Assembly: GCA_028290695.1 (NCBI GenBank)
Contig: JAQGJJ010000188.1
Location: forward strand, 1 to 38,056
Source of the DNA: Enterovirga sp.
GTDB taxonomy: Bacteria; Pseudomonadota; Alphaproteobacteria; Rhizobiales; Beijerinckiaceae
DNA: 38,056 nucleotides
Reading direction: 5' to 3'
The position numbers and the translations under genes are program-made. Below, piece after piece: positions 3,122-36,520 of the stretch. The number at the start of each line of letters is the position of its first letter. The first letter of the stretch is position 1. Below the pieces are notes generated by a model, which worked only from the letters and a program-made list of their open reading frames with translations, was not told the DNA's origin and made no database searches.

Positions 3122-4275
3122 CCCTTGATCTCCTGTTCGTCGGAGGCGGCCTCGCCAACGGCCTCCTTGCCTATCGGCTGGCGGAGACCCGTCCGGACCT
3201 GACCCTGCTGGTCCTGGAGTCAGGAGCATGCGCAGGCGGAAACCACACCTGGTCATTCCACGAGGGCGACCTCACGCCCGGGCAGCACGCCTGGATCGCG
3301 CCGTTCGTGTCGCATCGCTGGCCGGGCTACGACGTGGCGTTCCCGGGCCTGCGCCGGGGGCTTGGCCTGCCCTATCTGTCGGTCTCCTCGTCCCGCTTCG
3401 CCCAGGTGCTCCGAGACAGGCTGGGCGCGCGCCTGCGTTGCGAAAGTGCCGCGACGCTCATCGAGCCGCTTCGCGCCGCGCTGGGGAACGGCGACACGAT
3501 CGAGGCGCGTGCAGTGGTGGATGGACGTGGTCCGATCACGAGCGCCGCGCTGGAACTCGGCTTCCAGAAGTTCCTCGGGCTCGAGATCCGGACAAGGGCT
3601 CCGCACCGGCTCGCTCGCCCGATCCTGATGGACGCGACGGTGCCGCAGCAGGACGGCTACCGCTTCGTGTACGTCCTGCCGCTGGCCGAGGATCGCCTTT
3701 TGGTCGAGGACACCTATTACGCGGACGGCGCGGCTTTGGACCCGGATGCGCTGCGCAATCGAGTCCTGGCCTATGCGACCGGCCGGGGATGGGAACCGGC
3801 GGAGATCCTGCGCAGCGAGACGGGCGTGCTTCCCGTGGTGCTCGGCGGCGACATCGCGGCGTTCTGGCGGGACGGTTCTTCCGGCGTCCCCCGCAGCGGC
3901 CTGCGGGCCGGCCTGTTTCACCCGACCACAGGCTATTCCCTCCCCGAGGCAGTCCGCCTCGCGGACCGCGTCGCCACGCTGCCGGACCTTTCGGCACCTG
4001 CGCTTCACGCCGCGATTCGGGCTTGGTCGGTACGGCGCTGGCAGGAGCAGAGCTTCTTCCGGCTGCTGAACCGCATGCTGTTCCGGGCCGGTCCGCCGGC
4101 CGAGCGGTTCCGCGTGCTGCAGCGCTTTTACGGCCTGCCCGAGCCCGCGATCGGCCGGTTCTATGCCGGCCGGCTCACGATGGCCGACAAGCTCCGCTTG
4201 CTGGTCGGCCGGCCGCCTGTGCCCGTGCTGGGCGCTGCCCGGGCCCTCATGCCGTTCACCGGGACACACGCATGA
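3097..4275 (+). CDS. crtY: Lycopene beta-cyclase
   Basis: LDLLFVGGGLANGLLAYRL, FQKFLGLEIRT and PLAEDRLLVEDTYYAD motifs; the true start lies inside ORF 2878..4275 (ATG 3097 or GTG 3118). Confidence 0.93.
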   Translation: MPARGAPVTLDLLFVGGGLANGLLAYRLAETRPDLTLLVLESGACAGGNHTWSFHEGDLTPGQHAWIAPFVSHRWPGYDVAFPGLRRGLGLPYLSVSSSRFAQVLRDRLGARLRCESAATLIEPLRAALGNGDTIEARAVVDGRGPITSAALELGFQKFLGLEIRTRAPHRLARPILMDATVPQQDGYRFVYVLPLAEDRLLVEDTYYADGAALDPDALRNRVLAYATGRGWEPAEILRSETGVLPVVLGGDIAAFWRDGSSGVPRSGLRAGLFHPTTGYSLPEAVRLADRVATLPDLSAPALHAAIRAWSVRRWQEQSFFRLLNRMLFRAGPPAERFRVLQRFYGLPEPAIGRFYAGRLTMADKLRLLVGRPPVPVLGAARALMPFTGTHA

Positions 4276-5780
4276 GCCGCAAGACAGCCGTCGTGATCGG
4301 CGCAGGGTTTGGCGGATTGGCGCTCGCGATCCGGCTCCAGGCCGCCGGGGTTGCGACGACCCTTGTCGAAAAGCGGGACAAGCCGGGCGGCCGGGCCTAC
4401 GTCTACGAGGACCAGGGCTTCGTGTTCGATGCCGGCCCGACCGTCATCACCGATCCGTCCGCCCTCGAGGAGCTGTTCGCCGCCGCCGGCCGCAGGCTCT
4501 CGGATTACGTGGAGCTTCTGCCCGTCAGCCCCTTCTACCGGCTCGCCTGGGAAGACGGCTTCAGCTTCGATTACGCCAACGACCAGGCGGAGCTTGATAG
4601 GCAGATCGCGGCCAAGAGCCCGGCCGACGTCGCCGGCTACCGCCGCTTCCTGGCCTATTCGGAGGCAGTGTTCGAGGAGGGATATCTGAAGCTCGGCGCG
4701 GTGCCGTTCCTGAGCTTCCGGGACATGGTGCGGGCCGGACCGGCCTTGGCCCGGCTTCAGGCCTGGCGCAGCGTCTACGGCATCGTGTCCAGCTTCATCG
4801 CGGACGAGCAGCTTCGGCAGGCCTTCTCCTTCCATTCGCTCCTGGTCGGCGGCAATCCGTTCGCCACCTCGTCGATCTACGCGCTCATCCATGCGCTGGA
4901 GCGGCGCTGGGGTGTGTGGTTTCCGCGGGGCGGGACCGGGGCGCTCGTCAGCGGCATGGTGCGCCTGTTCGAGGATCTCGGCGGCACGGTGAGGCTGAAC
5001 GCCGAGGTGGAACGGATCGAGGTCGCCGGAGCCCGCGTCACCGGCATTGCCTGCCGGGACGGCTGGCGTTGCGAGGCCGACGCGGTCGCGTCCAACGCGG
5101 ACGTGGTCCACACCTATGCACGATTGCTCGGCGGCACGGAGCGCGGCCGCCGGGAGGGCAAACGGCTCGCCGCCAAGCGCCACAGCATGTCGCTGTTCGT
5201 GGTCTATTTCGGGCTGAAGCGGCACCGCCCGGAGTTGCAGCACCACACCGTGCTGTTCGGTCCGCGCTACAAGGCGCTGATCAACGACATCTTCCGGCGC
5301 GAAACGCTGGCCGACGATTTCTCGCTCTACCTGCACTCGCCCTGTGCCACCGACCCGTCGCTCGCGCCTGCCGGCGCCGGCAGCTACTACGTGCTCGCGC
5401 CCGTGCCGCATCTCGGCACCGCCCAGGTCGATTGGGAGACCGAGGCGCCGCGCTACCGCGACCGGATCCTGGACTATGTCGAGCGACGCTGCATGCCGGG
5501 GCTGCGGGAGGATCTCGTGACCGTTCGGTGTTTCACGCCGCACGATTTCCGGGACGAGCTCAACGCCCATCTCGGCTCGGCTTTTTCGCTCGAGCCCATC
5601 CTGACGCAGAGCGCCTGGTTCCGGCCGCACAACCGCGACGACGCCCTCCCGAACCTCTACGTCGTGGGCGCCGGTACCCATCCGGGGGCCGGCCTGCCGG
5701 GCGTCGTCGGATCCGCCAAGGCCACCGCGGGATTGATGATCGCCGATCTCGGGCACGCGGCCCAGGCCGGCGCGGCGTGA
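4272..5780 (+). CDS. crtI: Phytoene desaturase (lycopene-forming)
   Basis: ATGA overlap with crtY; MSRKTAVVIGAGFGGLALAIRL FAD motif; C-terminal YVVGAGTHPGAGLPGVVGSAKATAGLM. Confidence 0.96.
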   Translation: MSRKTAVVIGAGFGGLALAIRLQAAGVATTLVEKRDKPGGRAYVYEDQGFVFDAGPTVITDPSALEELFAAAGRRLSDYVELLPVSPFYRLAWEDGFSFDYANDQAELDRQIAAKSPADVAGYRRFLAYSEAVFEEGYLKLGAVPFLSFRDMVRAGPALARLQAWRSVYGIVSSFIADEQLRQAFSFHSLLVGGNPFATSSIYALIHALERRWGVWFPRGGTGALVSGMVRLFEDLGGTVRLNAEVERIEVAGARVTGIACRDGWRCEADAVASNADVVHTYARLLGGTERGRREGKRLAAKRHSMSLFVVYFGLKRHRPELQHHTVLFGPRYKALINDIFRRETLADDFSLYLHSPCATDPSLAPAGAGSYYVLAPVPHLGTAQVDWETEAPRYRDRILDYVERRCMPGLREDLVTVRCFTPHDFRDELNAHLGSAFSLEPILTQSAWFRPHNRDDALPNLYVVGAGTHPGAGLPGVVGSAKATAGLMIADLGHAAQAGAA

Positions 5781-6706
5781 GCGACGCTACGGTTCGGGCC
5801 GGGAAGGCGGCGATCGCGAGCGGGTCGAAGAGCTTCGCCGGGGCCGCCCGCCTGTTCGACGCCAGCACGCGCGAGAGCGCCGTGATGCTGTACGCCTGGT
5901 GCAGGCACTGCGACGACGTCATCGACGGCCAGGATTTCGGGCACGCTCACCGGGCCGGAACAGGCGCTCCCGCAAACCCGGCTGGGGACATCGCGGAACT
6001 GGAGCGAAAAACGCGCGCCGCCCTGGCCGGCGAGCCGTCGCCGGAAGCTGCCTTCGCGGGCCTCGCACGGGTCGTGCGGCAGCACGACATTCCGGTGGGC
6101 CTCCCGCTCGCCCATCTCGCCGGCTTCCGGATGGACGTCGAGGGCCGCCCCTACCGGACGCTCGAAGATACGCTCGACTACTGCTATCACGTGGCCGGCG
6201 TGGTCGGCCTGATGATGGCGCATGTCATGGGGGTGCGGGATCCGGCCGTGCTCGACCGGGCCTGCGATCTCGGCCTCGCATTCCAGCTCACCAACATCGC
6301 ACGCGACGTCGTGCCGGACGCCCGGGAGGGCCGGATCTACCTGCCCGAGACGTGGCTCGCCGCGGCCGGCATTGCGCGCAACGACCTCGCCGAGCCAAGG
6401 CACCGCGCCGCGCTGTCGCTCCTCGCCGGGCGCCTCGTCGATGTCGCGGAGCCCTATTACGCCTCGGCGCTTGCCGGGATCGCCCGGCTGCCGCCCCGCT
6501 CGGCCTGGGCCATCGCGGCGGCGCGTGCCATCTATCGGGAGATCGGCCATGAGGTGAGGCGGCGCGGCCCGCGGGCCTGGGATGTCCGGGTTTCCACCTC
6601 GACCGCGCGAAAGCTCTGGCTGGCTGCCGGCGGAGCGCTCTCCGCCGTCGCGGTTCGCCGGGCCGCTTTTCCGCCCCGGGCGGGGCTCTGGACGCGTCCC
6701 TCGTGA
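5777..6706 (+). CDS. crtB: Phytoene synthase
   Basis: GTGA overlap with crtI; CRHCDDVIDG and QLTNIARDVVPDAREGRIYLP signatures. Confidence 0.95.
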   Translation: MSDATVRAGKAAIASGSKSFAGAARLFDASTRESAVMLYAWCRHCDDVIDGQDFGHAHRAGTGAPANPAGDIAELERKTRAALAGEPSPEAAFAGLARVVRQHDIPVGLPLAHLAGFRMDVEGRPYRTLEDTLDYCYHVAGVVGLMMAHVMGVRDPAVLDRACDLGLAFQLTNIARDVVPDAREGRIYLPETWLAAAGIARNDLAEPRHRAALSLLAGRLVDVAEPYYASALAGIARLPPRSAWAIAAARAIYREIGHEVRRRGPRAWDVRVSTSTARKLWLAAGGALSAVAVRRAAFPPRAGLWTRPS

Positions 6707-6715
6707 GAGCGACGG

Positions 6716-7474
6716 TCAGGCTCGTGCGCGCCTATGCGGCAACCGCCACCAGGGCACGTCGGGACGGTCATGATGCTCGTGATGGTAGCCGAAGTGAAAG
6801 CAGGTCAGGAGCGAGACCGGCCACGAGAAGCCGCTCGATCTCGCGTTGTGGCGGTCCGTGAAAGGCTCGTCCTCGTGCCGGTGCGGCAGGTAGGTTCCGA
6901 AGTAGAACAGCTGGAGCGACGACAGGATCGCCGGGAGGGCCCAGAAAACGAGCGCGTTCGCGACCGGCACCCGCAACAGGCCTAGATAGAGCGCGAGCAG
7001 CCCGGACAGGACGGCGAATTCCCGCCAGCCGAAGTACCGGCGAAAGAAGATCAGGTACCAGGGCCAGAAGCCCCGCGGCGCCCCTGCGTGAAAGTCCGGG
7101 TCCCTGTCGGTTCCGGCATGCCGGTGGTGGTCGAAGTGTTTTGCGACCAAACGGTCGTAGGAGAAGCCTGAGTACAGCGCCAGGCAGACACGGCCGATTG
7201 CCCGGTTGAGCCGCGGCCGGAACGGCGCCAGCGAGCCGTGCATCGCATCATGGGCGACGATGAACAGACCGACGCTGAGCCAGCATTGCAACGGCAGGAG
7301 AAGCGCCACCAGAGCAGGTGAATCCCGGTCGAACCGGAACAGGAACACGCCCGCCACGTGGGTCACGATCCAGGCCGAGACGATCAGCCCCGCGAGACAA
7401 AGCCCAACCGCCGTCTGGACGGCATAGCCCGCAACGCGCTGAGACCCGGGGGGCGATCCCGCCGCGCTCGTCAT
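6716..7474 (-). CDS. crtW: Beta-carotene ketolase
   Basis: Di-iron histidine boxes HDAMHG, KHFDHHRHAG and HFGYHHEHHDRPDVPWWRLP. Confidence 0.93.
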   Translation of the reverse strand: MTSAAGSPPGSQRVAGYAVQTAVGLCLAGLIVSAWIVTHVAGVFLFRFDRDSPALVALLLPLQCWLSVGLFIVAHDAMHGSLAPFRPRLNRAIGRVCLALYSGFSYDRLVAKHFDHHRHAGTDRDPDFHAGAPRGFWPWYLIFFRRYFGWREFAVLSGLLALYLGLLRVPVANALVFWALPAILSSLQLFYFGTYLPHRHEDEPFTDRHNARSSGFSWPVSLLTCFHFGYHHEHHDRPDVPWWRLPHRRARA

Positions 7475-7959
7475 GCGCCGTCCTTCAGGCTACCGCCGTG
7501 CTTGGCCCGAAGCTCGTCGCGCAGCTTCCGCACCGGCGGCGCGTACAGGAAGCCGAAGGACACGCAATCGTCCTTGCCGTCCACGGCGTGGTGCAGGCGG
7601 TGCGCCTGGACGAGACGTTTCAGGTAGGTGCTTCGGGGTGTGATCCGGAACGGCCATCTCCCGTGCACAAGGCCGTCATGCACCACGAAGTATAGAAGGC
7701 CGTAGACGCTCATCCCGACCCCGACCCAGTACAATGGCCCCTCCAAGGGCGACGCGAAGGCCAGCAGCCCGAACGCCAGAAGGGCGAACAGGATGGCGTA
7801 AAGATCGTTCTTCTCGAACACCCCGTCGTGAGGCTCGTGATGCGAGCGGTGCCAGCCCCAGCCGGGTCCGTGCATGACGTATTTGTGGGTCAGGAACGCT
7901 ACGGCCTCCATGACGAGCACCGTCCCGACGACGATCAGGAGCCCCTCGATCAGCGACAT
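7471..7959 (-). CDS. crtZ: Beta-carotene hydroxylase
   Basis: 162 aa; HKYVMHGPGWGWHRSHHEPHDGVFEKNDLYA, HDGLVHGRWPF and AHRLHHAVDGKDDCVSFGFLY; 4-bp ATGA overlap with crtW. Confidence 0.96.
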   Translation of the reverse strand: MSLIEGLLIVVGTVLVMEAVAFLTHKYVMHGPGWGWHRSHHEPHDGVFEKNDLYAILFALLAFGLLAFASPLEGPLYWVGVGMSVYGLLYFVVHDGLVHGRWPFRITPRSTYLKRLVQAHRLHHAVDGKDDCVSFGFLYAPPVRKLRDELRAKHGGSLKDGA

Positions 7960-7981
7960 GGCGCCCAGACGCTGGATCGGC

Positions 7982-8905
7982 TCAACATGATGGCGCGGCG
8001 GTCGGCGTGAGCCGCTTCAGCGGAAGCGCGAAGGTTTCCTCCACGAGCGCGGCGAGCGGACCGTCGGGATCGAGCAATTCGAGTGCCGCACTGACATGGC
8101 GTTCCAAACGATGGTGCGCCTGGTTGTGGCCCAGGAGGGACAGCAGCGTCGCCTTCCCGGAATCCTCGCATTGGCACGATGCCGTCCCGCCGCAGAGATC
8201 GCCGTCCGCCAGGTCGTCCAGGATCTGGAAAGCCTGTCCCAGGTGAGTGGCGAACCGCCGCATGCGGTCCGTGCTGTTCTGGTCGGCCCCCGCGATCACG
8301 GCCGCCATCTCGACCGCCGCGACGAACAGCATTCCGGTCTTCAGGTGGTTGGCGTCCGCCACACGGTCGGCATCGGCCCAGTCCCCGGGGCGAAGGTCCC
8401 GCAGCTGTCCTCCGGCAAGTCCGTCGGCGCCCACGGCCTGGGCCAGGATTTGCACGAGGCTGCAGCGGGTCGCCGGCTTGAGCCCCGCGGCGGTCGCGAG
8501 AAGCCCATAGGCACGGGACAGGAGGGTGATGCCGGCCAGAACGGCCGCATCCTCCCCGAAGGCGACGTGCGTGGCTGGCTGCCCTCGGCGCGAGACCGCA
8601 TCGTCCATCGCCGGCAGGTCGTCCAGAACGAGGGACGCGGCATGCACCATCTCCAGGGCGCAGCCTGCATCAAGGGCATCGAACTCATCCGCACCAAGCT
8701 CTCGCGTGGCCAGGATGGCCAGGAGGGGGCGCAGGCGCTTCCCGGGGGTCAGGAGCGCATACCGCACGGCTTGGGTCAGTGTGTTCTCCGTCGCAGGCGG
8801 GGCGAGGGCCCCCAGGCGCCGCTCGAAGGCTTCGCGAAGAGCGCGCGGGTCGGAGCGCGGGCGGCTCTTGCGAGGCGCAAGCGCGACCGCATCATCTAGC
8901 CTCAT
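7982..8905 (-). CDS. crtE: Geranylgeranyl diphosphate synthase
   Basis: LDDLPAMDD and ILDDLADGD Asp-rich motifs, GKRLRPLLA; likely start ATG at 8905 within ORF 7982..9034. Confidence 0.93.
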   Translation of the reverse strand: MRLDDAVALAPRKSRPRSDPRALREAFERRLGALAPPATENTLTQAVRYALLTPGKRLRPLLAILATRELGADEFDALDAGCALEMVHAASLVLDDLPAMDDAVSRRGQPATHVAFGEDAAVLAGITLLSRAYGLLATAAGLKPATRCSLVQILAQAVGADGLAGGQLRDLRPGDWADADRVADANHLKTGMLFVAAVEMAAVIAGADQNSTDRMRRFATHLGQAFQILDDLADGDLCGGTASCQCEDSGKATLLSLLGHNQAHHRLERHVSAALELLDPDGPLAALVEETFALPLKRLTPTAAPSC

Positions 8906-11737: not shown

Positions 11738-12823
11738 ATGGATAGACGGTCATTGCTGAAGGGGGGCGGCTTCGCTGCGGCGGGTGCTGCGGCCGTTGCG
11801 AGCCCGGCCATCGCTCAGGGGATGCCGGAGGTGAAGTGGCGCATGGCGTCGAGCTATCCGAAGAGCCTCGACACGCTCTATGGAGCAGGCGTCCAGGTGG
11901 CTAAGCGCGTCGCGGCAGCGACCGACAACAAGTTCCAGATCCAGGTCTTCGCGGCCGGTGAGATCGTGGGCGGCCTCCAGATCGTGGACGCCGTGCAGAA
12001 CGGGACGGTCGAGTGCGGCTACACGCTGTCCAGCTACTACATCGGCAAGGATCCGACCTTCATGTTCGAAGCGTCGGTGCCGTGGGGCTTCAACACCCGC
12101 CATCATAACGCCTGGATGCAGCACGGCGGCGGGCTGCAACTCGTTCGCGACTTCCTGGCCGACTACAACATCGTCAACTTCCCGGCCGGCAACACCGGCG
12201 CTCAGATGGGTGGCTGGTTTCGCAAGGAGATCAACTCGCTCGAGGATCTGAAGGGGCTGAAGTTCCGTATCGCCGGCATGGGCGGACAGATCCTGGCCCG
12301 CCTTGGCGTCGTGCCGCAGGTGCTCGCTGGTGGCGACATCTATCCGGCCCTCGAGCGCGGCACGCTCGACGCGGTCGAATGGGCCGGGCCCTACGACGAC
12401 GAGAAGCTCGGCTTCGTGAAGGTCGCCAAGTACTATTATTATCCGGGGTTCTGGGAAGGAACGGCGCAGACATCGGTCTATGCCAACAAGGAGAAGCTCG
12501 CGGCCCTCCCTGAGAGCTATCGCAATATCCTGGAAGCGGCTTGCGCGGAGGCCAACCTTTGGTGCCTGTCCAAGTACGATGCGGAGAACCCGGATGCGCT
12601 GCGCCGCGTGGTCAGCCAGGGCGCCGTCCCGAAGGCGTTTCCGCGTGACGTGCTCGAGGCGAGCTACAAGCAGGCCTTCGCACTCTACGGCGAGCTCGCC
12701 GCGCAGAACCCCAAGTTCAAGAAGATCTTCGATCACTGGATGGCGTTCCGGGACAAGGAGCTGACCTGGTTCCGGATCGGCGAATTCCCCTTCGACTACT
12801 TCATCTACTCGCAGCGGAACTGA
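11738..12823 (+). CDS. TRAP transporter substrate-binding protein, TakP-like, with twin-arginine signal
   Basis: MDRRSLLKGGGFAAAGAAAVASPAIAQ Tat-like signal; LKGLKFRIAGMGGQILARLG and ERGTLDAVEWAGPYDDEKLGF. Confidence 0.92.
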   Translation: MDRRSLLKGGGFAAAGAAAVASPAIAQGMPEVKWRMASSYPKSLDTLYGAGVQVAKRVAAATDNKFQIQVFAAGEIVGGLQIVDAVQNGTVECGYTLSSYYIGKDPTFMFEASVPWGFNTRHHNAWMQHGGGLQLVRDFLADYNIVNFPAGNTGAQMGGWFRKEINSLEDLKGLKFRIAGMGGQILARLGVVPQVLAGGDIYPALERGTLDAVEWAGPYDDEKLGFVKVAKYYYYPGFWEGTAQTSVYANKEKLAALPESYRNILEAACAEANLWCLSKYDAENPDALRRVVSQGAVPKAFPRDVLEASYKQAFALYGELAAQNPKFKKIFDHWMAFRDKELTWFRIGEFPFDYFIYSQRN

Positions 12824-17098: not shown

Positions 17099-18511
17099 TC
17101 ACCTGAAGAAGATGAAGGTGATCGCGATGAAGAGCGGAATGAGGATCGCACCCGACCAACGCATGTAGCCGAGGAAGCCGGGCATCTTCACGCCCGCCTC
17201 CCGGGCAATGGCGAAGACCATGAAGTTGGGCGCATTGCCGATATACGTGTTCGCGCCCATGAACACCGCGCCGGTCGAAATGGCGGCGAGCGTTGCCGCA
17301 AGCGGTCCCATGAGCCGGGCCGGGTCCCCGCCCGCGAGTTCGAAGAAGACGATGTAGGTCGGCGCATTGTCCAGAACCGACGAGAGAATTCCGGTCAGCC
17401 AGAAATAGGCAACCTCGTTCGGCGAACCGTCGGGCCGAGATACGAGCGACAGGAGCGGCGCGAACGCACCGTCCCGGCCTGCTGCCAGCGCGGCGGCCAC
17501 CGGGATGATGCAGATGAAGATGCCGGCGAAGATCTTGGCGACCTCCACGATCGGCCGCCAGTTGAAGTCGTTGGCGGCGCGGTTGCGCTTGCTCGTCAAG
17601 GCGAGCGACAGCAGCGCGAGGACGATCATCGCACCGTCCCGGACGAGGTTCTGCAATTCGAGCGTGGTCGACCTGATCGCCACGCTTACGCCTGGCCGCC
17701 AGACGCCCGACAGCAGGATCACGCCGACAAGCGCGGCCACGAGCAGCAGGTTGACCTTGCCCCTGAGACGAACACGGGTGTCGTCGGGAGTGGGATCCGG
17801 CATCACCGACCTCCCATCCTCGCGCGTAAACCAGTAGCGGTCGAGCAGATAGAACAGGACCAGCAACACGCCTGCCGCGAACGCCGTCTCCGCCGCGAGC
17901 GCACGGGTCGTCCAGAAGAAGTCGACGCCGCGCAGGTATCCGAGAAAGAGCGGCGGATCGCCGAGCGGCGTCAGCGCTCCGCCGATGTTGGACACGAGGA
18001 AGATAAAGAAGACGACCACATGGACGTTGTGCCGCCGGTCGTCGTTCGCCCGGATCAGCGGCCGGATCAGCACCATGGAGGCCCCGGTCGTTCCCACGAA
18101 GCTCGCGAGCAGCGTTCCGAAGGCGAGCAGGCCGGTGTTCAGTGCCGGTGAGCCGTGCAGGTTACCGGTGACCACGATGCCCCCGGCGATCGTATAGAGC
18201 GCGAATAGGAGAAGGATGAACGGCAGGTACTCCGTCAGGAGCACGTGCAGGGTGGCGTCGAGGGTCGCGCCGAAGCCCTGAGTGAGGGCGAGCGGGACCA
18301 GGACGGCGAGCGCCCAGGCGGCCGAGAGCGCACCCATGTGCCGATCCCAGAACCGATGCGCGAGCTGAGGCAGAAGCGCGATCGACAGCAGGATGCCCAC
18401 AAAGGGGAGGGCCCACAAAAGCCCGAGCGAGGCGCCGTCCAAGGTGGCTGCGACCGCCGGGCTTGGTATAACCACCAGTGCCGCAAGGCCTGCCCGTCGA
18501 ACCGATCGCAT
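17099..18511 (-). CDS. Sodium:proton antiporter / NhaD-like ion transporter
   Basis: Multi-TM; VVFFIFLVSNIGGALTPLGDPPLFLGYLRGVDFFW and SSVLDNAPTYIVFFELAGG typical of the NhaD/ArsB-like group. Confidence 0.85.
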   Translation of the reverse strand: MRSVRRAGLAALVVIPSPAVAATLDGASLGLLWALPFVGILLSIALLPQLAHRFWDRHMGALSAAWALAVLVPLALTQGFGATLDATLHVLLTEYLPFILLLFALYTIAGGIVVTGNLHGSPALNTGLLAFGTLLASFVGTTGASMVLIRPLIRANDDRRHNVHVVVFFIFLVSNIGGALTPLGDPPLFLGYLRGVDFFWTTRALAAETAFAAGVLLVLFYLLDRYWFTREDGRSVMPDPTPDDTRVRLRGKVNLLLVAALVGVILLSGVWRPGVSVAIRSTTLELQNLVRDGAMIVLALLSLALTSKRNRAANDFNWRPIVEVAKIFAGIFICIIPVAAALAAGRDGAFAPLLSLVSRPDGSPNEVAYFWLTGILSSVLDNAPTYIVFFELAGGDPARLMGPLAATLAAISTGAVFMGANTYIGNAPNFMVFAIAREAGVKMPGFLGYMRWSGAILIPLFIAITFIFFR

Positions 18512-27504: not shown

Positions 27505-28794
27505 TCAATGCATCATCTTGGAGGGCAGCCACAGGATGATGTCGGGGAACGCCGTCAGGATCGCTATCGCGATGATGTGCGCGATGAAGTGGGGCAGCGA
27601 CCCGTGGAAGACCTCGCCGACGGGCCGGCCCGAGTAGCGCGCGACGACGAAGCAGTTCAGCCCGATCGGCGGCGTGATCATGCCGATCTCGGCCGTCACG
27701 ATCTTGACGATCCCGAACCAGAGCGGGTCGAAGCCGAGCGTCTTGATGAGCGGCACGACAATCGGAACGGTCAGGACCAGAATGGCGATCTGGTCCATGA
27801 ACATGCCGAGGATGATGTAGCCGAAGAGGATGACCGCGATGATGATCCAGCGGGATACCTCGAGCGCTCCGACCCAGTTCACGAGGTTCTGCGTGACCTG
27901 GGTCAGCGTGAAGAAGTAGCCGAAGATGTGCGCGCCGAGCAGGATCATGGCGATCATGCAACTGCCATGCGCCGCCCGCAGAAGCGTTCTCGGCAGGGTG
28001 ACATGGTCCACCTTGCCGTACCAGAGCGCGATCCCGAACGCTCCGATCGCGCCCAGGGCCGAGGCTTCGGTCGGTGTGGCGACGCCGGTGTAGATGACGC
28101 CGGTCACCATGCCGAACAGGATCACCATGGGCGCGACCACCCGGAGCATGCGGAACTTTTCCGCCCACGTGACGGGGCTCGCTTCCGGTGCGCGGCTCGG
28201 GTCCTGCCAGACCAGGAACCAGACGGTCGCCATGATCGTGAAGGTGACCAGGATGCCCGGGATGATCCCGCCGATCAGAAGGCCCCCGATGTTCACCTCG
28301 GCCAGGAGCCCATAGATCACGAGTGCGACGCTCGGGGGGATGAGCATGGCGAGCGTGCCCGAGATCGCAACCACGCCGGCTGCCATCTTGGGCTCGTAAC
28401 CCTGCTTCAGCATGGCGGGCAGGCTGGTGGAGGACAGTGTGGCGGCCGAAGCCGTGCTGGTTCCGCAGATCGCTCCGAAGCCAGCCCCGGCGAGGGCGGT
28501 CGCCATGGCGAGGCCGCCGCGCACGCGGCCCATCCAGGCCGCCGCCGCCCGAAAGAGGTCGTCCGCGACGCCGCTCAGCAGGACGAATTCCGCCATGAGC
28601 AGGAACATCGGGATCGTGATCAGCTCGTACGAGCTGACACTGGAGATCGGCACCGTCTGCAGGATGCCGGACAGCATCGGGAACCCGCCGACAAGATAGA
28701 GCCCGAGCGCGCCGGAGATCGCCATCGCGAACCCGACAGGCGTACCGATCGCGAGAAGGCAGAAGAGGGCCCCGAGGCCCGCCGCGATGGTCAC
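27505..28794 (-). CDS. dctM: TRAP transporter large permease subunit
   Basis: Multi-TM, FGAICGTSTASAATLSSTSLPAM, GTLAMLIPPSVALVIYG, PIVVPLIKTLGFDPLWFGIV; GTG start overlapping the dctQ stop. Confidence 0.95.
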   Translation of the reverse strand: MTIAAGLGALFCLLAIGTPVGFAMAISGALGLYLVGGFPMLSGILQTVPISSVSSYELITIPMFLLMAEFVLLSGVADDLFRAAAAWMGRVRGGLAMATALAGAGFGAICGTSTASAATLSSTSLPAMLKQGYEPKMAAGVVAISGTLAMLIPPSVALVIYGLLAEVNIGGLLIGGIIPGILVTFTIMATVWFLVWQDPSRAPEASPVTWAEKFRMLRVVAPMVILFGMVTGVIYTGVATPTEASALGAIGAFGIALWYGKVDHVTLPRTLLRAAHGSCMIAMILLGAHIFGYFFTLTQVTQNLVNWVGALEVSRWIIIAVILFGYIILGMFMDQIAILVLTVPIVVPLIKTLGFDPLWFGIVKIVTAEIGMITPPIGLNCFVVARYSGRPVGEVFHGSLPHFIAHIIAIAILTAFPDIILWLPSKMMH

Positions 28795-29339
28795 TCGAAC
28801 GACTCCTGGGCATGGTGGCCATGCCGAACGATCGGGACCAGGTCGCGGCCCGTCGCGAGCGAGCCGAGGTGGCCGACGAATGCGATGGCGAGCCGGAGCG
28901 CGAGAAGACCGCAACCGAACGGTACCAGCGCCAAAGCCGGCCAGGTCGGCCAAGGGATCGCCCCGGCGACGACGTCGCCCTCCAAGAAGCTATCCGTCAT
29001 GCGGCGCCAGCCGACCCATGTGATCACCAGGAACACCACAAGGCTCGCGCCGGTGGTGATCACCTCGGTGATGCGGAACGGCGTCGCAGGCAGCCTTTGC
29101 TGCAGGATATCCACGCTGACATGCGCACCCGCCTGGTAGGCGTGGGACAGAACGAGGAAGAAGACGGCGGCCATCAGGTACAGTGAAATGATGTCGTAGG
29201 CCCAGCCGAGCGGGCTGTTGAAGACGTACCGCATGAAGACGTCGGCTGAGACGATGATCATGATGGCGAACATCGTCGCAGCCGCGATCCAGGTAGCGAT
29301 CCGCTCGACGAGCGCGATCACGCTGTGCAGGATTTTCAA
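28791..29339 (-). CDS. dctQ: TRAP transporter small permease subunit
   Basis: Four TM segments; MIIVSADVFMRYVFNSPLGWAYDIISLYLMAAVFF; TTG start. Confidence 0.93.
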   Translation of the reverse strand: MKILHSVIALVERIATWIAAATMFAIMIIVSADVFMRYVFNSPLGWAYDIISLYLMAAVFFLVLSHAYQAGAHVSVDILQQRLPATPFRITEVITTGASLVVFLVITWVGWRRMTDSFLEGDVVAGAIPWPTWPALALVPFGCGLLALRLAIAFVGHLGSLATGRDLVPIVRHGHHAQESFE

Positions 29340-29359
29340 GCTGAAACTCCGGATTCAGC
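29340..29359 (-). promoter_or_regulatory. Hairpin presenting the dctQ Shine-Dalgarno in its loop (GCTGAA-TCCGGAGT-TTCAGC-TTG)
   Basis: 6-bp perfect stem abutting the TTG start codon; loop contains GGAG. Confidence 0.5.
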
Positions 29360-29403
29360 CGCGCGCGGCAAGTTCCGCAGCGGGCGGGGCGAGGGGCTCC
29401 GGC

Positions 29404-30435
29404 CTACTTCTTCGGCTGCTCGGAGACCGCCTGCCTGAACTCGGCCAGTGCCGCGCTGCCCTTGCGGCCGCGCGAATCGAGTCCCTTGGCCCACTGGGTC
29501 GCGACGTCCTTCAGCATCTCGTCGAGTCTGCTGCGGAATTCGGTGGAAATCGGGACGAACTGGACGCCAGCCTCGACAAGTTTCTGCTTGATTTCCGCGT
29601 CCTGCTGATCGACCGACGCGCAGGCCGACTTGGTGATCTCGTCAGAGACCTCCGTCACGATCTTCTTCACCTCAGGCGGCAGGCTGTTCCAAGACGCGTC
29701 ACTGATCGAATACGCAACGATGAAGCTGGAGAAGTTGGCGCCCTCCGTCGAGTAGCGGACGATCTTCTCGACGTTGTAGGAGACCACGCTGTCGAGCGGG
29801 AACAGAACCCCGTCGAGGGTGCCGCGCGAGAGCGACTCGTACGTCTCCGGTGCAGCCATCCTGACCGGAACCGAACCGATGGTCCGGAGCGTCAGGTCTT
29901 GCGCTCCGCCGGTCGACCGGAGCTTCAGCCCCTTCAGGTCCTGCTCTGCCTTGACCGGGTTCTTAACGGTGAGGATCTGGTAGGGGGGCAGCGCCACCGC
30001 CATCAGGAGCCGGATCTTGTTCGGGGTGTAGTCTTGGGCGGCAATGGCGCCTTCGCGGGCAGCCTTCGCGTAGGCGAGGGTGCCCTGGCAGCTCGTCTGG
30101 AAGCTGCCCGGAAGCATGGCCGCCTCGGAGAGTGGCATCTTCTCGGACACATAGGCCGGTGCCACGTAGCCGACGTTCGTAACGCCCGTCTGGGTCAGCG
30201 TCAGCATGTCGGTGGCCTTTCCGAGCTGCTGGCTGGGGAAGTACTCGAACGTCACCGCGCCGTTCGTGCGCTTGGTAACCTCTGCCATCCAGGGCTGGAT
30301 GATGACCTTGGTCAGATAATGGCCGCTGGGAAAGGAGTCCGCGACCCGGAGTTTGACCGGGTCGGCTGCCATCGCCGGCCACGCCGCGATGAATGCGCAT
30401 GACAGCGCGGCGGCCGTGAACGATCCCTTGGCCAT
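29404..30435 (-). CDS. dctP: TRAP transporter substrate-binding protein
   Basis: Sec signal MAKGSFTAAALSCAFIAAWPAMAADPVKLRVADSFPSGHYL; DLKGLKLRSTGG with carboxylate-binding Arg; SRGTLDGVLFPLDSV. Confidence 0.94.
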   Translation of the reverse strand: MAKGSFTAAALSCAFIAAWPAMAADPVKLRVADSFPSGHYLTKVIIQPWMAEVTKRTNGAVTFEYFPSQQLGKATDMLTLTQTGVTNVGYVAPAYVSEKMPLSEAAMLPGSFQTSCQGTLAYAKAAREGAIAAQDYTPNKIRLLMAVALPPYQILTVKNPVKAEQDLKGLKLRSTGGAQDLTLRTIGSVPVRMAAPETYESLSRGTLDGVLFPLDSVVSYNVEKIVRYSTEGANFSSFIVAYSISDASWNSLPPEVKKIVTEVSDEITKSACASVDQQDAEIKQKLVEAGVQFVPISTEFRSRLDEMLKDVATQWAKGLDSRGRKGSAALAEFRQAVSEQPKK

Positions 30436-30523
30436 AATGTGTCTCCCCCCGCAGCAGTTTGTCCGTGGAGGCGCCCGGTAGATCCCGGTCGCGCCACGCG
30501 CGGCTTCTGCGGTATGGATGAGG

Positions 30524-30551
30524 ATTACATAATGGTGAACCTGCCGGTCAA
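30524..30551 (-). promoter_or_regulatory. Candidate sigma70-like promoter for dctPQM
   Basis: On the minus strand TTGACC - 16 nt - TGTAAT. Confidence 0.4.
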
Positions 30552-30578
30552 TCAGCAATGTCTACTGCGGCGCACCAA

Positions 30579-30627
30579 CGCATGTTGCGCATGCGAGATC
30601 AGCGGCCACTATTGACTTGTCTCGCAT
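30579..30627. promoter_or_regulatory. Nested inverted repeats / candidate operator in the dctP-CoA transferase divergent region
   Basis: CGCATG-TTGCG-CATGCG (30579-30595) and ATGCGAGA (30591-30598) ... TCTCGCAT (30620-30627). Confidence 0.6.
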
Positions 30628-30649
30628 CGTGAAAGAGTTGTTCAGCACT

Positions 30650-31909
30650 ATGAATAGAAACGCCACGGGCCCGCTTGCCGGAATTCGGGTCTTGGATCTC
30701 ACGTCGGTCCTCATGGGACCGTTCGCGACGCTTCAGCTCGGCGACCTCGGGGCAGACGTGATCAAGGTCGAGTCCCACGATGGGGACGTCGTGCGGGAGA
30801 TCGGTCCAAGCCGCAGCCCGAAAATGGGCGGCATGTTCCTGCATACGAACAGAAGCAAACGAAGCATCGTCATCGACCTGAAGCGTCCGGACGGCAAGGA
30901 GGCATTGCTCCGCCTCGCGGCTACGGCCGACGTGCTCGTGTTCAACATGCGGCCGAAGGCGCTGGCGCGGCTGGGGCTGGATTACGAGGCCGTGCGGGCG
31001 GTCCGGCCGCAGATCATCTTCGTGGGGCTCGTCGGCTTCGGGCAGGCCGGTCCCTACGCGGCTCGGCCGGCCTACGACGACCTGATCCAGGGCGCATCCG
31101 GCGTGCCATCGCTCGTGGCGGCGGCTTCGGACGGCACGCCTCGCTACGTCCCGGTGAACATCGCAGACCGTATCGTGGGGCTGTTTGCGGTCCAGGCCAT
31201 CCTGGCGGCGCTCTTTCACCGCGAGCGGACCGGCGAAGGCCAGGAGATCGAGATCCCGATGTTCGAGACGATGACGGGCTTCGTCCTGGGAGATCATTTC
31301 GGCGGTCTCACCTACCGTCCGCCTCTCGACGGCGGCGGGTATCCGCGCCTGATGTCCCGTTACCGGCGCCCCTACCAGACGCTCGACGGGCATATCTGCG
31401 TCCTGATGTACACGAACAAGCACTGGCGCTCCTTCTTCACCGCGGTGGGGACGCCCGAGATGCTCGCGGACGAGCGCTTCTCCAGCATCAAGGAGCGCCT
31501 TCGGAACATCGATGCCGTGTATGGCGAAGCCGGCCGCGTCTTCCGCACCCGCACCACCGAGGAATGGCATGCCGTGCTGGAAGCGGCGGACATCCCGAAC
31601 ATGCCGATGCACACGCTGGCGACGATCCAGGACGACCCGCATCTCAAGGCCGTCGGGTTCTTTGAGGAGGTGGAGCACCCCGTCGAGGGGCCGGTCACCT
31701 CCATGCGGGTGCCGTCCCGCTGGTCCAAGAGTCAGCCCAAGGCGGGCCTTCCCGCACCGGCCCTGGGCCAGCATACGCGCGAGGTCCTCGGGGAAGCGGG
31801 CCTGTCGACGGCGGAGATCGACGCCCTGGTTGCTGGCGGCGCTGTGTTCCAGAGCGATATCCTGCCCGCACCGGGCTCCACGCACGACAACAGGGAAAAG
31901 GCCGTCTGA
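30650..31909 (+). CDS. CaiB/BaiF family (class III) CoA-transferase
   Basis: LAGIRVLDLTSVLMGPFATLQLGDLGADVIKVE; RSIVIDLKRPDGKEALLRL; QEIEIPMFETM; ATG 30650 chosen over upstream TTG 30617. Confidence 0.93.
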   Translation: MNRNATGPLAGIRVLDLTSVLMGPFATLQLGDLGADVIKVESHDGDVVREIGPSRSPKMGGMFLHTNRSKRSIVIDLKRPDGKEALLRLAATADVLVFNMRPKALARLGLDYEAVRAVRPQIIFVGLVGFGQAGPYAARPAYDDLIQGASGVPSLVAAASDGTPRYVPVNIADRIVGLFAVQAILAALFHRERTGEGQEIEIPMFETMTGFVLGDHFGGLTYRPPLDGGGYPRLMSRYRRPYQTLDGHICVLMYTNKHWRSFFTAVGTPEMLADERFSSIKERLRNIDAVYGEAGRVFRTRTTEEWHAVLEAADIPNMPMHTLATIQDDPHLKAVGFFEEVEHPVEGPVTSMRVPSRWSKSQPKAGLPAPALGQHTREVLGEAGLSTAEIDALVAGGAVFQSDILPAPGSTHDNREKAV

Positions 31910-33075
31910 TGGATTTCGCGCTGACGGGCGAACAGGAAGCCATCCAGGAAGCCGTCGGAGCAATCTGCGCCGGCTTCGACGACGAGTACTGGCTGAAGCG
32001 CGACAAGGAGGGGGGATTCCCGACCGACTTCTACGACGCGATGGCGGAAGGGGGCTGGCTCGGGATCTGCGTTCCGGAGGCTTACGGGGGATCGGGGCTC
32101 GGGATCACCGAGGCCGCCCTCATGATGCGGACCATTGCGGAATCCGGCGCCGGCATGTCGGGCGCGTCTGCCCTGCACATCAACGTGTTCGGCCTCAACC
32201 CCGTCGTCGTTTTCGGGACCGAGGAGCAGAAGCAGCGCATGCTGCCCCCGATGGTGAAAGGGCTGGAGAAATCCTGCTTCGCGGTCACCGAGCCCAATAC
32301 CGGCCTCAACACCACCCAGCTCAAGACGCGGGCGGTCCTAAAGGGCGACCGCTATGTGGTGAACGGCCAGAAGGTCTGGATTTCGACCGCGCAAGTTGCC
32401 AACAAGATCCTGCTGCTCGCCCGCACGACTCCGCTCGAGGAGGTCAGAAAACCGACCCACGGTCTCACGCTGTTCTACACCGATTTCGATCGCTCCCGGA
32501 TCAAGGTGCACGAGATCGAGAAGATGGGCCGCAAGGCGGTCGATTCGAACGAACTCTTCATCGAAGATTTCGAGATCCCGATCGCGGATCGGATCGGCGA
32601 GGAGGGGCGAGGCTTCGAATACATCCTGCATGGGATGAACCCGGAGCGCGTGCTGATCGCGGCCGAAGCGGTCGGGCTCGGTCACCTGGCCCTGTCGCGG
32701 GCCACGGCCTACGCGAAGGAGCGGGTCGTCTTCAACCGGCCCATCGGCCAGAACCAGAGCATCCAGCACCCGCTCGCGGCCAACTGGATGGAACTTGAGG
32801 CCGCCTGGTTGATGATCATGTCGGCTGCCTGGCAGTACGACAAGGGGCTGCCATGCGGCGCCGCGGCGAACGCCGCGAAGTATCTGGCGGGGGAAGCGGG
32901 CTTCAATGCGTGTCAGCAGGCTGTGATGACCCACGGCGGCTTCGGCTATGCCAAGGAGTACCATGTAGAGCGTTACCTGCGGGAGGTTCTCGTGCCACGC
33001 ATCGCCCCGATCAGCCCGCAACTCGTGCTCTGCTACATCGCGGAGCGTGTTCTTGGCCTGCCGAAATCGTATTGA
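31909..33075 (+). CDS. Acyl-CoA dehydrogenase with isovaleryl-CoA dehydrogenase-type catalytic Glu position
   Basis: CFAVTEPNTGLNTTQLKTRAV, GQKVWIST, MTHGGFGYAKEYHVERYLREV; 1-bp overlap with the CoA-transferase stop. Confidence 0.94.
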   Translation: MDFALTGEQEAIQEAVGAICAGFDDEYWLKRDKEGGFPTDFYDAMAEGGWLGICVPEAYGGSGLGITEAALMMRTIAESGAGMSGASALHINVFGLNPVVVFGTEEQKQRMLPPMVKGLEKSCFAVTEPNTGLNTTQLKTRAVLKGDRYVVNGQKVWISTAQVANKILLLARTTPLEEVRKPTHGLTLFYTDFDRSRIKVHEIEKMGRKAVDSNELFIEDFEIPIADRIGEEGRGFEYILHGMNPERVLIAAEAVGLGHLALSRATAYAKERVVFNRPIGQNQSIQHPLAANWMELEAAWLMIMSAAWQYDKGLPCGAAANAAKYLAGEAGFNACQQAVMTHGGFGYAKEYHVERYLREVLVPRIAPISPQLVLCYIAERVLGLPKSY

Positions 33076-33113
33076 CGAGATGCCAGACAGGCCCGCGCCG
33101 CTCGTCCCCCCTC

Positions 33114-33128
33114 TTATCGTCTCGATAA
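33114..33128. promoter_or_regulatory. Palindrome TTATCG-TCT-CGATAA upstream of the racemase gene
   Basis: 6-bp perfect arms, 3-nt centre, in the 146-bp gap between ACAD and racemase. Confidence 0.4.
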
Positions 33129-33221
33129 CCGGGCGCTCTCGGGGTGCGGCTGGTTCGACTCGCGGAGCATCCCGCGCCCGGACGGAACCGGCACCGATAT
33201 GGCGCCGCTCGGAGGCACGCC

Positions 33222-34472
33222 ATGTCCGGTGACCCCGAACCACGCGGCCTTCGGAGCGGGCCGCTGTCGGGCCTCAGGATCATCGAGATGGCGGGCGTGG
33301 GGCCCGGACCGATGTGTGCCATGATGCTGGCGGATGCCGGCGCCGAGGTGCTGCGGATAGACCGGCCGATGCCGAGCGGCTTGGGCATGGAGCGCCCGGC
33401 GCGGTTCGACCTTCTGGCTCGCGGCCGCCGCTCCGTCGCAATCGACCTGAAGCACCCGGATGGCCGGGATTGCGTGCTCGACCTCGTCCGCAAAGCGGAT
33501 GCCCTGATCGAGGGCTTCCGGCCCGGCACCATGGAGCGGCTCGGGCTCGGTCCGGAGCCGTGTCTCACGGCCAGGCCGTCGCTCGTCTACGGCCGCATGA
33601 CCGGATGGGGGCAGGGCGGACCGCTTGGCCCGGCGGCAGGGCACGATCTCAACTACATCGCGCTCACGGGAGTGCTGCACGCGATCGGACGGGCGGACGC
33701 GCCCCCGACGCCCCCGCTGAACCTCGTGGGGGATTTCGGGGGCGGGGCCATGTACCTCGCCTTCGGGCTCCTGGCGGCTCTCTTGCATGCGCGGGAGACC
33801 GGGGTCGGACAGGTGGTGGACGCCGCCATGGTCGACGGAGCGGCCAGTTTGATGACCGCGATGTACGGGCTGCACGCAGCCGGCCTGCACACCGACCGTC
33901 GGGGGGCGAACGTCCTCGATTCCGGCGCTCCCTATTACGAGGTCTACACCTGCGCGGACGGACTCCATCTGTCGGTCGCACCGATCGAAGAGAAGTTCCG
34001 GGCGGTGCTGTACGAGCGGATCGGCCTCGATCCCGCTCTGATGCCGGATCTGCGCGATCGGGGGACGTGGCCTGCCGCCAAGGACATCCTGGCGGCCAAG
34101 TTCCGCGAACGGTCCCGCGCGGAATGGTGCAGCTTGCTGGAGGGCACGGACGCATGCGCGGCGCCCGTCCTCTCGCTCGCCGACGCGCCGGAGCACCCCC
34201 ATAATCGCGAGCGCGACACCTTTGTGACGATCGACGGTGTGGTGCAGCCTGCGCCCGCGCCGCGCTTCTCGGTCACACCCTCCGGCCTTCCGACGCCGCC
34301 CGAGAAGGCAGGCGCGAGCACGACAGCGGCGCTGGCGGATTGGGGCATCGAGGAGAAACGGATCCAGGCATTGGTCGCTTCGGGAGCGATTGGACTCAGG
34401 GCGGGGCCCGGCAGGCGCCGAAAGGAGATGTCGGCGGCGACCGCTTCGTCATGTTCGATGGCCGAGGACTGA
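33222..34472 (+). CDS. Alpha-methylacyl-CoA racemase-like protein (CaiB/BaiF superfamily)
   Basis: [78 protein letters not shown]: conserved GHDxNYI and GDFGGG of AMACR/MCR. Confidence 0.9.
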
Positions 34473-34482
34473 GGCGGCGGAG

Positions 34483-35217
34483 GTGGGAGTGATCGTCCGA
34501 CAGGCCGCCAACGTGCTCGACCTCCTGGAGTTCTTCGCCCAGGAACGTCGCCCGGCCACCCTGTCGGAGGTGGCGGAGCATTTCGGGTGGCCCCGCTCGA
34601 GTACCTTCAACCTCCTCACGACGCTCGCGGAGCGCGGTTACCTATACGAGCCGAAGCCGAGAGCCGGCTATTACCCGACCGGGCGCTGGCTGTCCCAAGC
34701 GCAGGCTGCCGCAGATGCCGAGCCTCTGCCACCCTGGACCAAGTTGATCCTCGCGGAGCTCGCGGCAGACACCGGCGAGACGGTCGCCATCGGGGGCGCG
34801 GCCGGCACGATGGCGGTGTTCCTGGACGTCGTCGAGTCCTCCGCGTCGGTCCGCTATTTCGGCCATGTCGGCCACCGGATCCCCATCCACGCATGCTCGA
34901 CCGGTCGGGCCCTGCTGCTACAATATCCGACGGCGGAGCGGATGGCGCTCTACCGGAAAATCGAGTTCAAGCGGTACGGGCCGTACACGCCCATCAGCAT
35001 CGACATGGTGGAGGCCGAACTCAGGCGCTCCGTCGAGCGCGGGTACTGCGAAAGCTACGCCGATTACAGTCCGGACTTGGCAGGGGTGGCCATGCCGCTC
35101 GGCGTGGCGGACCGCCGTCTCGCGATCGTGGTTGCTGGACCGATGTTCCGAATGGCGGACCGCATGGTTGCCGTGGCGAAGGCGATCGGCCGGGCCGTCG
35201 AACGGCACGCGCGCTAG
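34483..35217 (+). CDS. IclR-family transcriptional regulator
   Basis: N-terminal wHTH (RPATLSEVAEHFGWPRSSTFNLLTTLAERGYL), C-terminal effector domain with HACSTGRALL; start GTG 34483 or 34489. Confidence 0.92.
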   Translation: MGVIVRQAANVLDLLEFFAQERRPATLSEVAEHFGWPRSSTFNLLTTLAERGYLYEPKPRAGYYPTGRWLSQAQAAADAEPLPPWTKLILAELAADTGETVAIGGAAGTMAVFLDVVESSASVRYFGHVGHRIPIHACSTGRALLLQYPTAERMALYRKIEFKRYGPYTPISIDMVEAELRRSVERGYCESYADYSPDLAGVAMPLGVADRRLAIVVAGPMFRMADRMVAVAKAIGRAVERHAR

Positions 35218-35233
35218 GCCCCAACCGCCGACG

Positions 35234-36520
35234 TCAATCCAACCTCGCAAGAGCCTGGGTGAGATCCGCGACGATGTCATCGGGATGCTCGATCCCGATG
35301 GACAGGCGGATGGTCGCGTCGCTGACACCGATGTGGTCGCGAACGGCTTTCGGCACGCCCGAATGCGTCGTCGACGCCGGATGGGATGCGAGCGATTCCG
35401 TTCCTCCTAGGCTAACGGCCAGCTTGAAGATCCGCAGCCCGTTGAGGAAGGCGAAAGCCTCGGGCTCCCCACCCTTGATGTCGAACGAAAAGGTCGCCCC
35501 GCCGGAGGTGCACTGCTTCGCGAAAACAAGCCGCTCCGGAGAGCTGTGCGGCAGAAACGGCGGAAAATAGACTTTCGCCACGCGGCGATCGAGTTGGAGG
35601 AAACGTGCTGCCACCTCGGCGTTGCGGCAGGCGGCATTCATGCGGAGGCTCAGAGTTTCGAGCGAGCGGCCGATCATCCAGGCCGAGTGAGGATCGAGCT
35701 GGGTGCCGATAGCCCCGCGCAGCATCTTGACGGGGCGCACGTAGTCCCGGCTTCCCACTACGGCGCCCGCAACCAGGTCGGAATGGCCGCCAACATATTT
35801 CGTGAGCGAGTAGATCGAGAGATCGGCGCCATGGGCGAGGGGCTTCTGATGGATCGGCCCGAGCAGGGTGTTGTCGCAGGCGACGATCGGACGATGGCCC
35901 TGGCGCTGACCGATCTCATCCGCCACCTCGCGCGCGAGCTCGATGTCGACCATCGTGTTGAGCGGATTGGACGGGGTCTCGATCATGATCGCCGAGACCC
36001 GGCCCGTGGCCATAGCGGCTCGCGCGCCGTCCCGCATGCTCGACGGGCTGACGCCGTCCGAGAAGCCCACGCCTTCGATACCAAACGGCTTCAGGGTCTT
36101 GGTGATCAGGGTCTCCGTTCCGCCATAGAGAGGCTGGCTGTGGAGAACGACGTCCCCGGGACGCGCGAAGGCCAGAAGGGTCGTGGCGATGGCCGCCATC
36201 CCGCTCGAGAAGATCGCGGCTGCCTCCGCGTCCTCGTACACGGCGAGGCGGTCCTCCACGATCTCGCTGTTGGGATGGTTGAAGCGCGAATACACGAGCC
36301 CGGCCGCGACGCCGGCCGGAGGCTCCCGCCGTCCCGACACGTAATCAAAGAATTCCTTCCCGTGCTCGGCGGACCGGAACACGAAGGTCGAGGTCAGGAA
36401 CACCGGCGGCTTGACTGCACCTTCCGACAGGGCCGGGTCGTAGCCGTAGCCGAGCATCAACGTCTCGGGATTGAGCTTTCGGTTGCCCAACCGGTCCTTG
36501 CGGTAGCCTTCGTCAGGCAT
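35234..36520 (-). CDS. PLP-dependent trans-sulfuration enzyme (cystathionine gamma-synthase / methionine gamma-lyase family)
   Basis: [67 protein letters not shown] (PLP lysine). Confidence 0.94.

Follow-up and report, generated by a model that had tools for sequence, protein, structure and literature searches.

What does a TRAP (tripartite ATP-independent periplasmic) importer do beside a class III coenzyme A (CoA)-transferase, an acyl-CoA dehydrogenase (ACAD), an alpha-methylacyl-CoA racemase (AMACR) homologue and an IclR-family regulator? This question was raised by a 38,056-nt stretch of Enterovirga sp. (GenBank contig JAQGJJ010000188.1, assembly GCA_028290695.1), here called the window, which is contig C242 of genome G000 (61.5% complete). 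The original prediction, made from the letters alone, had taken the genes for a module that imports a 2-methyl-branched carboxylic acid, activates it with CoA, epimerises it and dehydrogenates it. Our comparison supported this core idea through co-conservation, the catalytic triad of the AMACR and the type of the ACAD. The reading that we came to favour, and hold tentatively, is that the genes form a catabolic operon that takes up a 2-methyl-branched monocarboxylic acid, probably an aromatic or hydrophobic one, and begins its beta-oxidation.

Gene content of the module

The importer genes lie on the minus strand. They encode the large permease DctM (27505..28794; 429 aa, GTG start; Pfam DctM 298 bits; 93% identical to the Enterovirga aerilata copy), the small permease DctQ (28791..29339; 182 aa, TTG start; Pfam DctQ 101 bits) and the solute receptor DctP (29404..30435; 343 aa with a signal peptide; Pfam DctP 122 bits). 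Divergent from them, on the plus strand, are the genes for the class III (CaiB/BaiF) CoA-transferase (30650..31909; 419 aa), the ACAD (31909..33075; 388 aa; Pfam ACAD domains 121, 94 and 67 bits), the AMACR homologue (33222..34472; 416 aa; Pfam CoA_transf_3 275 bits) and the IclR-family regulator (34483..35217; 244 aa, GTG start; Pfam IclR_C 76 bits, HTH_IclR 61 bits).

All seven genes were intact, each with a single terminal stop, and the stop of the CoA-transferase gene overlaps the start of the ACAD gene. The gene set and divergent layout first described were thus borne out, with a Pfam match for every gene. The absence of a hydratase and a thiolase also held: no match to a MaoC hydratase or a CitE lyase was found in the window, and no thiolase was among its called genes. 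The closest ACAD loci were those of E. aerilata (93%), a bin labelled Methylorubrum extorquens (90%) and E. rhinocerotis (87%), which assigned the window to the Enterovirga group.

Conservation and fuller versions

Co-occurrence was counted in the best 80 ACAD loci, and an AMACR gene was scored if it lay within about 10 kb of the ACAD gene. AMACR was present in 11 of the 80, compared with 0.23 expected from the density of AMACR homologues (35 in 243 Mb across 60 relatives), a number inflated, like the other co-occurrence numbers, by the shared ancestry of the loci; because of this kinship, a tail probability computed for it is no true p-value. The other partners were the CaiB transferase (51 loci), a CitE-type lyase (35), a MaoC hydratase (33), IclR (24), a RipA-like CoA-transferase (24) and TRAP genes (20). 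Among relatives in the family and order whose ACAD was 59% or more identical, AMACR lay within about 5 kb in 5 of 10 (0.02 expected).

The loci with AMACR span at least seven genera (Enterovirga, Bosea, Azospirillum, Bradyrhizobium, Gemmobacter, an unclassified proteobacterium and a Rubrivivax bin), and plasmids of Frigidibacter mobilis and Paracoccus saliphilus carry two copies besides the best 80 loci. By the ACAD tree, AMACR was gained or lost as a neighbour several times. The module is narrow, since among 387 genomes of the class the pairing of AMACR with the ACAD was confined to the ACAD's close clade (G174, G256). It is a conserved unit of narrow distribution, not a chance neighbourhood. 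The gene-neighbourhood search called for in the original prediction therefore did not refute it: the genes are co-conserved with a TRAP or an ATP-binding cassette (ABC) importer. No paper describing this gene combination was found in a collection of open-licence literature.

In fuller versions the operon also encodes a MaoC hydratase, a CitE-type lyase and a RipA-like CoA-transferase (CatI); such versions were found in E. aerilata, Bosea, Azospirillum, Bradyrhizobium, Gemmobacter and on the Frigidibacter plasmid. The order in E. aerilata is dctMQP on one side and CaiB, ACAD, CatI, AMACR, MaoC, CitE and IclR on the other. Bosea and Azospirillum keep the enzyme order, with a branched-chain-type ABC importer replacing TRAP, and both importers are present in L019, a Bradyrhizobium bin. 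A MaoC2 gene adjoins the operon in loci L008, L145 and L146.

On plasmid pcai42C of F. mobilis (L145:7769-16939), from oil-production water, the genes for CaiB, ACAD, CatI, AMACR, MaoC, CitE and DctQMP are codirectional, with an IclR-like gene divergent. The plasmid was typed as conjugative, so the complete operon with its importer could be passed from one bacterium to another. The P. saliphilus plasmid carries CaiB, ACAD, AMACR and DctQMP with IclR, which is nearly the reduced set of the window.

In L049, L050, L053 and about 20 more Bradyrhizobium loci, the CaiB-ACAD pair stands beside a thiolase-like protein and a small protein with the OB-fold and zinc-ribbon domains of ChsH2. ChsH2 and Ltp2 are known from the cleavage of the cholesterol side chain, and the likeness of these neighbours suggests a possible alternative cleavage route. 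The window lacks these genes, and steroid use is not implied.

Catalytic residues of the enzymes

The first enzyme carries a CoA_transf_3 domain (363 bits) with the catalytic Asp173 in the motif NIADRIVG, as expected for a class III CoA-transferase. Its closest solved chains were formyl-CoA, succinate-hydroxymethylglutarate and oxalate CoA-transferases, and none of the curated equivalog models scored above its cut-off with it.

In the alignment of the ACAD, Glu246-Arg247 fell in NPERV, and the C-terminal Glu was replaced (RIAPISP where IYEGTN is usual). The place of Glu246 is one that we take to be the catalytic base position of the isovaleryl- and long-chain acyl-CoA dehydrogenases. With a helix G Glu before Arg and no C-terminal Glu, the ACAD belongs to this type, given that assumed isovaleryl position, and the description of it as branched-type was fair.

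The AMACR homologue scored about 397 bits against MCR, the racemase of Mycobacterium tuberculosis (1x74). H126, D156 and E241 of MCR, whose catalytic roles are described (PMC10967716), correspond to H141, D171 and E256 of the window protein, and this triad was invariant in 14 operon homologues. The family III CoA-transferase fold and the His/Asp/Glu triad are thus those of an MCR-type AMACR. The second CaiB-family protein, first described as racemase-like, is by this score and by the three catalytic residues a true AMACR homologue. It differs from MCR in that its gene is located in a TRAP-linked operon.

Ligand class of the receptor

The predicted structure of DctP had a pLDDT of 88.5 and a pTM of 0.84. 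Its top 13 fold matches comprised 4p56, 5im2, TarP with coumarate, cinnamate or 4-hydroxyphenylacetate, and receptors described as "specific for aromatic acid ligands". The ligands of 4p56 and 5im2 are presumably mandelate and benzoate, respectively. The succinate receptor PA5167 (9dsy) came at rank 38. The sequence ranking agreed with the fold, with 115 bits for the nearest aromatic-acid receptors and 44 for 9dsy.

Arg173 of DctP was invariant in 19 homologues and sits at the place of the carboxylate-binding Arg, as assigned by motif and not by structure overlay. Its closest relatives in fold and sequence and the conserved Arg place DctP with the TarP-like aromatic-acid TRAP receptors. Because TRAP receptors share one fold and the identities were 20-28%, the match favours an aromatic or hydrophobic monocarboxylate as the ligand but is no proof of it.

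The coumarate uptake locus of Rhodopseudomonas palustris (TarPQM, CouPSTU) has one TRAP and one ABC importer (PMC3610893). The module is like it in the fold of DctP, which was closest to the TarP-like receptors, and in the alternation or co-occurrence of TRAP and ABC importers among its relatives. It is unlike it in its downstream enzymes and in the identity of DctP, which was only about 20-24%.

Proposed pathway

From the gene content, conservation, catalytic residues, receptor family and remnant of CatI that were observed, we propose a reaction order, substrate class, products and regulation. DctPQM would take up the 2-methyl-branched acid, and the class III CoA-transferase would transfer CoA onto it. 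The AMACR would interconvert the 2R and 2S thioesters by exchange of the alpha-proton, so that both enantiomers could be used. The ACAD would then strip two hydrogens to give the 2-methyl-2-enoyl-CoA. In the fuller versions, MaoC would hydrate this product, and the CitE-type lyase would cleave the 3-hydroxy-2-methylacyl-CoA with release of propionyl-CoA. The final steps are not encoded locally in the window, so enzymes from elsewhere in the genome would be needed, or the copy is decaying.

Several points weigh against this reading. CitE-type lyases usually cleave carboxylated 3-hydroxyacyl-CoAs (malyl- and citramalyl-CoA), which favours a dicarboxylate. The identity of DctP to the aromatic-acid receptors (20-28%) is too low to fix specificity. 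AMACR was missing from the vicinity in 69 of the 80 ACAD loci, so the ACAD need not be tied to 2-methyl substrates. Finally, the incompleteness of the genome makes the absences weak.

A wider proposal, which we regard as doubtful, is that the module represents an undescribed aerobic pathway for a racemic 2-methyl aromatic or hydrophobic acid. Beta-oxidation would be assisted by the racemase, and a CitE-family lyase would replace the thiolase and release propionyl-CoA. The pathway would have spread in Alphaproteobacteria and by conjugative plasmid, and in Bradyrhizobium the CaiB-ACAD pair would alternatively be joined to ChsH2/Ltp2-like genes. Should the substrate be an aromatic 2-methyl acid, the operon would serve in genomes as a marker for bacteria that use such acids, and it would point to a new role of CitE-type lyases.

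Comparison with itaconate and methylsuccinate degradation

Itaconate and methylsuccinate are degraded by Ict, Ich, Ccl and Mcd with an MmgE/PrpD isomerase (Gonner et al. 2025, PMC12290011; de Witt et al. 2023, PMC9875883), and itaconate is imported by IctPQM (2025, PMC12599236). The use of methylsuccinate was linked to a gene cluster, with MmgE/PrpD as stereo-isomerase, only in 2023-2025. The cluster (Ict, Ich, Ccl, Mcd, Msi; Pseudomonas aeruginosa PA0878-PA0886; Cupriavidus necator) and the window module have in common a class III CoA-transferase, an ACAD, a step that isomerises the second enantiomer and, in P. aeruginosa, a TRAP importer, which the C. necator version lacks. The MaoC hydratase and CitE-type lyase of the cluster are shared by the fuller relatives and not by the window. 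The module differs in its ACAD subfamily and catalytic base position, in its DctP family, in AMACR replacing MmgE/PrpD, and in an IclR regulator that is part of the unit.

These likenesses raised the alternative of a C5-dicarboxylate pathway of the same kind, in which AMACR would replace the MmgE/PrpD isomerase and a C4 route would lead to acetyl-CoA and pyruvate. The fuller relatives do have a RipA-like CoA-transferase, a MaoC related to RipB and Ich (131 bits) and a CitE related to RipC and Ccl (204 bits, its best NCBIfam match), next to an ACAD, a class III CoA-transferase and a TRAP importer as in P. aeruginosa. Both scores, however, fall far under the cut-offs for RipB (340) and RipC (375). 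The RipA, RipB and RipC of the rip operon of the Yersinia pestis type are likewise matched in kind, whereas the ACAD, AMACR and class III CoA-transferase are additions to that operon.

Ich-type clusters of relatives served as a closer reference (L163:10619-14638, L164:1066-4687 and L165:1-3869). They contain genes for an Ich-type MaoC (217-246 bits), an ACAD of another subfamily and CaiB, and L165 also has MmgE/PrpD. These three loci come from Enterovirga relatives and another family of the order, and partly resemble the Pseudomonas itaconate/methylsuccinate cluster. Their ACADs were 30-31% identical to the window ACAD over the alignment and carry their catalytic Glu C-terminally, in the EGT loop. 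Measured against these ACADs of relatives, the window enzyme is not a methylsuccinyl-C4-CoA dehydrogenase of the Mcd type. A source of the published Mcd had also been sought in Cupriavidus metallidurans; this was rejected, as the ACAD match there stands beside a TctC-like receptor and not in an itaconate cluster.

Neither an itaconyl-CoA hydratase nor a citramalyl-CoA lyase was found: the window has none, and the MaoC and CitE of relatives score below the curated cut-offs. An MmgE/PrpD isomerase was neither seen beside the window module nor named in the annotated AMACR operons. Identity with the itaconate/methylsuccinate cluster was therefore rejected on the ACAD subfamily, the Glu position and the MaoC and CitE scores, in comparison with the Ich-type clusters of relatives.

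The chemistry pointed the same way. In the published pathway CoA is carried on C4, away from the stereocentre. AMACR needs an alpha-hydrogen on the chiral carbon and so cannot use the C4-CoA ester of Ict and Mcd. A C1-ester route is chemically possible. DctP is, in addition, distant from the dicarboxylate receptors. Taken with the ACAD type and the MaoC and CitE scores, this made the C5-dicarboxylate alternative rather unlikely. An aromatic or hydrophobic 2-methyl monocarboxylate is a likelier substrate than methylsuccinate, one of the substrates guessed at the outset, given the grouping of DctP with aromatic-acid receptors, an ACAD that is not of the methylsuccinyl-C4-CoA dehydrogenase type and the inability of AMACR to act on a C4-CoA ester.

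The module may work like the itaconate/methylsuccinate pathway, but on these sequence comparisons it is not a member of it. A separate enzyme lineage with the same plan appears to solve the stereochemistry by a CoA-ester racemase, and such a racemase points to a substrate class other than that of methylsuccinate.

A possible unbranched substrate

The AMACR could also be a racemase in name only, or act on a side substrate. An unbranched acid, for example one with a phenylpropanoid side chain, would then receive CoA, be dehydrogenated and hydrated, and be split by the lyase into an aldehyde and acetyl-CoA. This would be in keeping with the majority of ACAD loci, which lack AMACR and include Bradyrhizobium TRAP loci with MaoC and CitE, and with the resemblance of DctP to receptors for unbranched cinnamates. 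The triad of the AMACR, however, is intact, and it is invariant in the 14 operon copies. The gene was retained even in reduced versions without CatI, MaoC and CitE (the window and L146). We considered an unbranched substrate rather unlikely, and a 2-methyl-branched acid preferable.

Probable reduction of the window copy

A scar of the last 16 codons of CatI was detected at 33179..33226 on the plus strand. In tblastn, the window codons matched residues 410-425 of the L009 CatI at the expected junction (9/16 identical), with a weak global E-value of 3.9. In blastn, the identity was 86% over 28 bases at the matching L009 junction. The scar overlaps the AMACR start, as the intact CatI gene does in relatives. 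It is credible because of this position, the exact end point of the intact gene, and not because of its E-value.

Within Enterovirga a gradation was seen, from the full operon of L008 to L009 without MaoC and CitE, and to the window, which also lacks CatI. The window copy is most likely a reduced derivative of a fuller operon, from which it would descend because the scar lies at the end point of the intact gene. The earlier statement that the pathway would feed other loci holds insofar as the window has no hydratase or thiolase. The pathway is not inherently open-ended, however, since fuller operons in the same genus and other families carry MaoC, CitE and a second CoA-transferase.

Related genes occur elsewhere in the same genome. 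A CitE homologue (69%) lies on contig C99. A paralogous region on C134 (L132:6422-13433) has an ACAD 59% identical to that of the window, a MaoC (54%) and a CitE (48%), but no AMACR. It also encodes a TctC-type receptor, a beta-keto acid cleavage enzyme (BKACE) and a RipA-like CoA-transferase. By homology, the CitE on C99 and the MaoC-CitE-CatI-ACAD region on C134 are possible helpers for the window copy. A set related to the C134 region, with AMACR nearby, was noted in L142.

The scar, the missing MaoC and CitE and the gradation would also fit a decaying remnant, stripped of hydratase, lyase and second CoA-transferase and by now unable to sustain growth on the substrate. This is improbable, as the seven genes are open and intact, P. 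saliphilus carries a near-identical reduced set and other contigs of the genome hold relatives of MaoC and CitE. That the genes are neighbours by chance and share no function, a view already disfavoured by conservation, is hardly credible: the ACAD family does occur with many partners (Ltp/ChsH2-like proteins, TctC receptors, ABC importers), but AMACR recurs beside it far above expectation (11/80 vs 0.23), in several bacterial families and on plasmids.

Candidate operator and neighbouring genes

The divergent intergenic control region (30436..30649) lies between the dctP and caiB starts and was compared by alignment with those of L008 and L009. Shortly before the CoA-transferase gene begins, it contains the palindrome TGAAAGAGTTGTTCA (TGAA-N7-TTCA; 30630..30644, plus strand). 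Two such palindromes were found in the window, compared with 0.09 expected. The one upstream of the CoA-transferase gene occupies the equivalent place in L008 and L009 and lies 36 bp upstream of the transferase gene in L073; in the other loci scanned it was not at that place. Our guess is that it is the IclR operator, through which IclR would control the divergent promoters. This regulatory claim is weak, because most other loci lack the palindrome.

Outside the module, a further TRAP receptor gene lies at 11753-12823 (Pfam DctP 185 bits), and a CitMHS_2-family transporter (627 bits) is encoded to the left, at 17099-18475. Positions 1781-8905 hold probable carotenoid genes, for a glycosyltransferase, a lycopene cyclase, a desaturase-like protein of the flavin amine-oxidase family and a polyprenyl synthetase. 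To the right, at 35234-36520, is the gene of a cystathionine gamma-synthase-family protein that scored above its NCBIfam cut-off.

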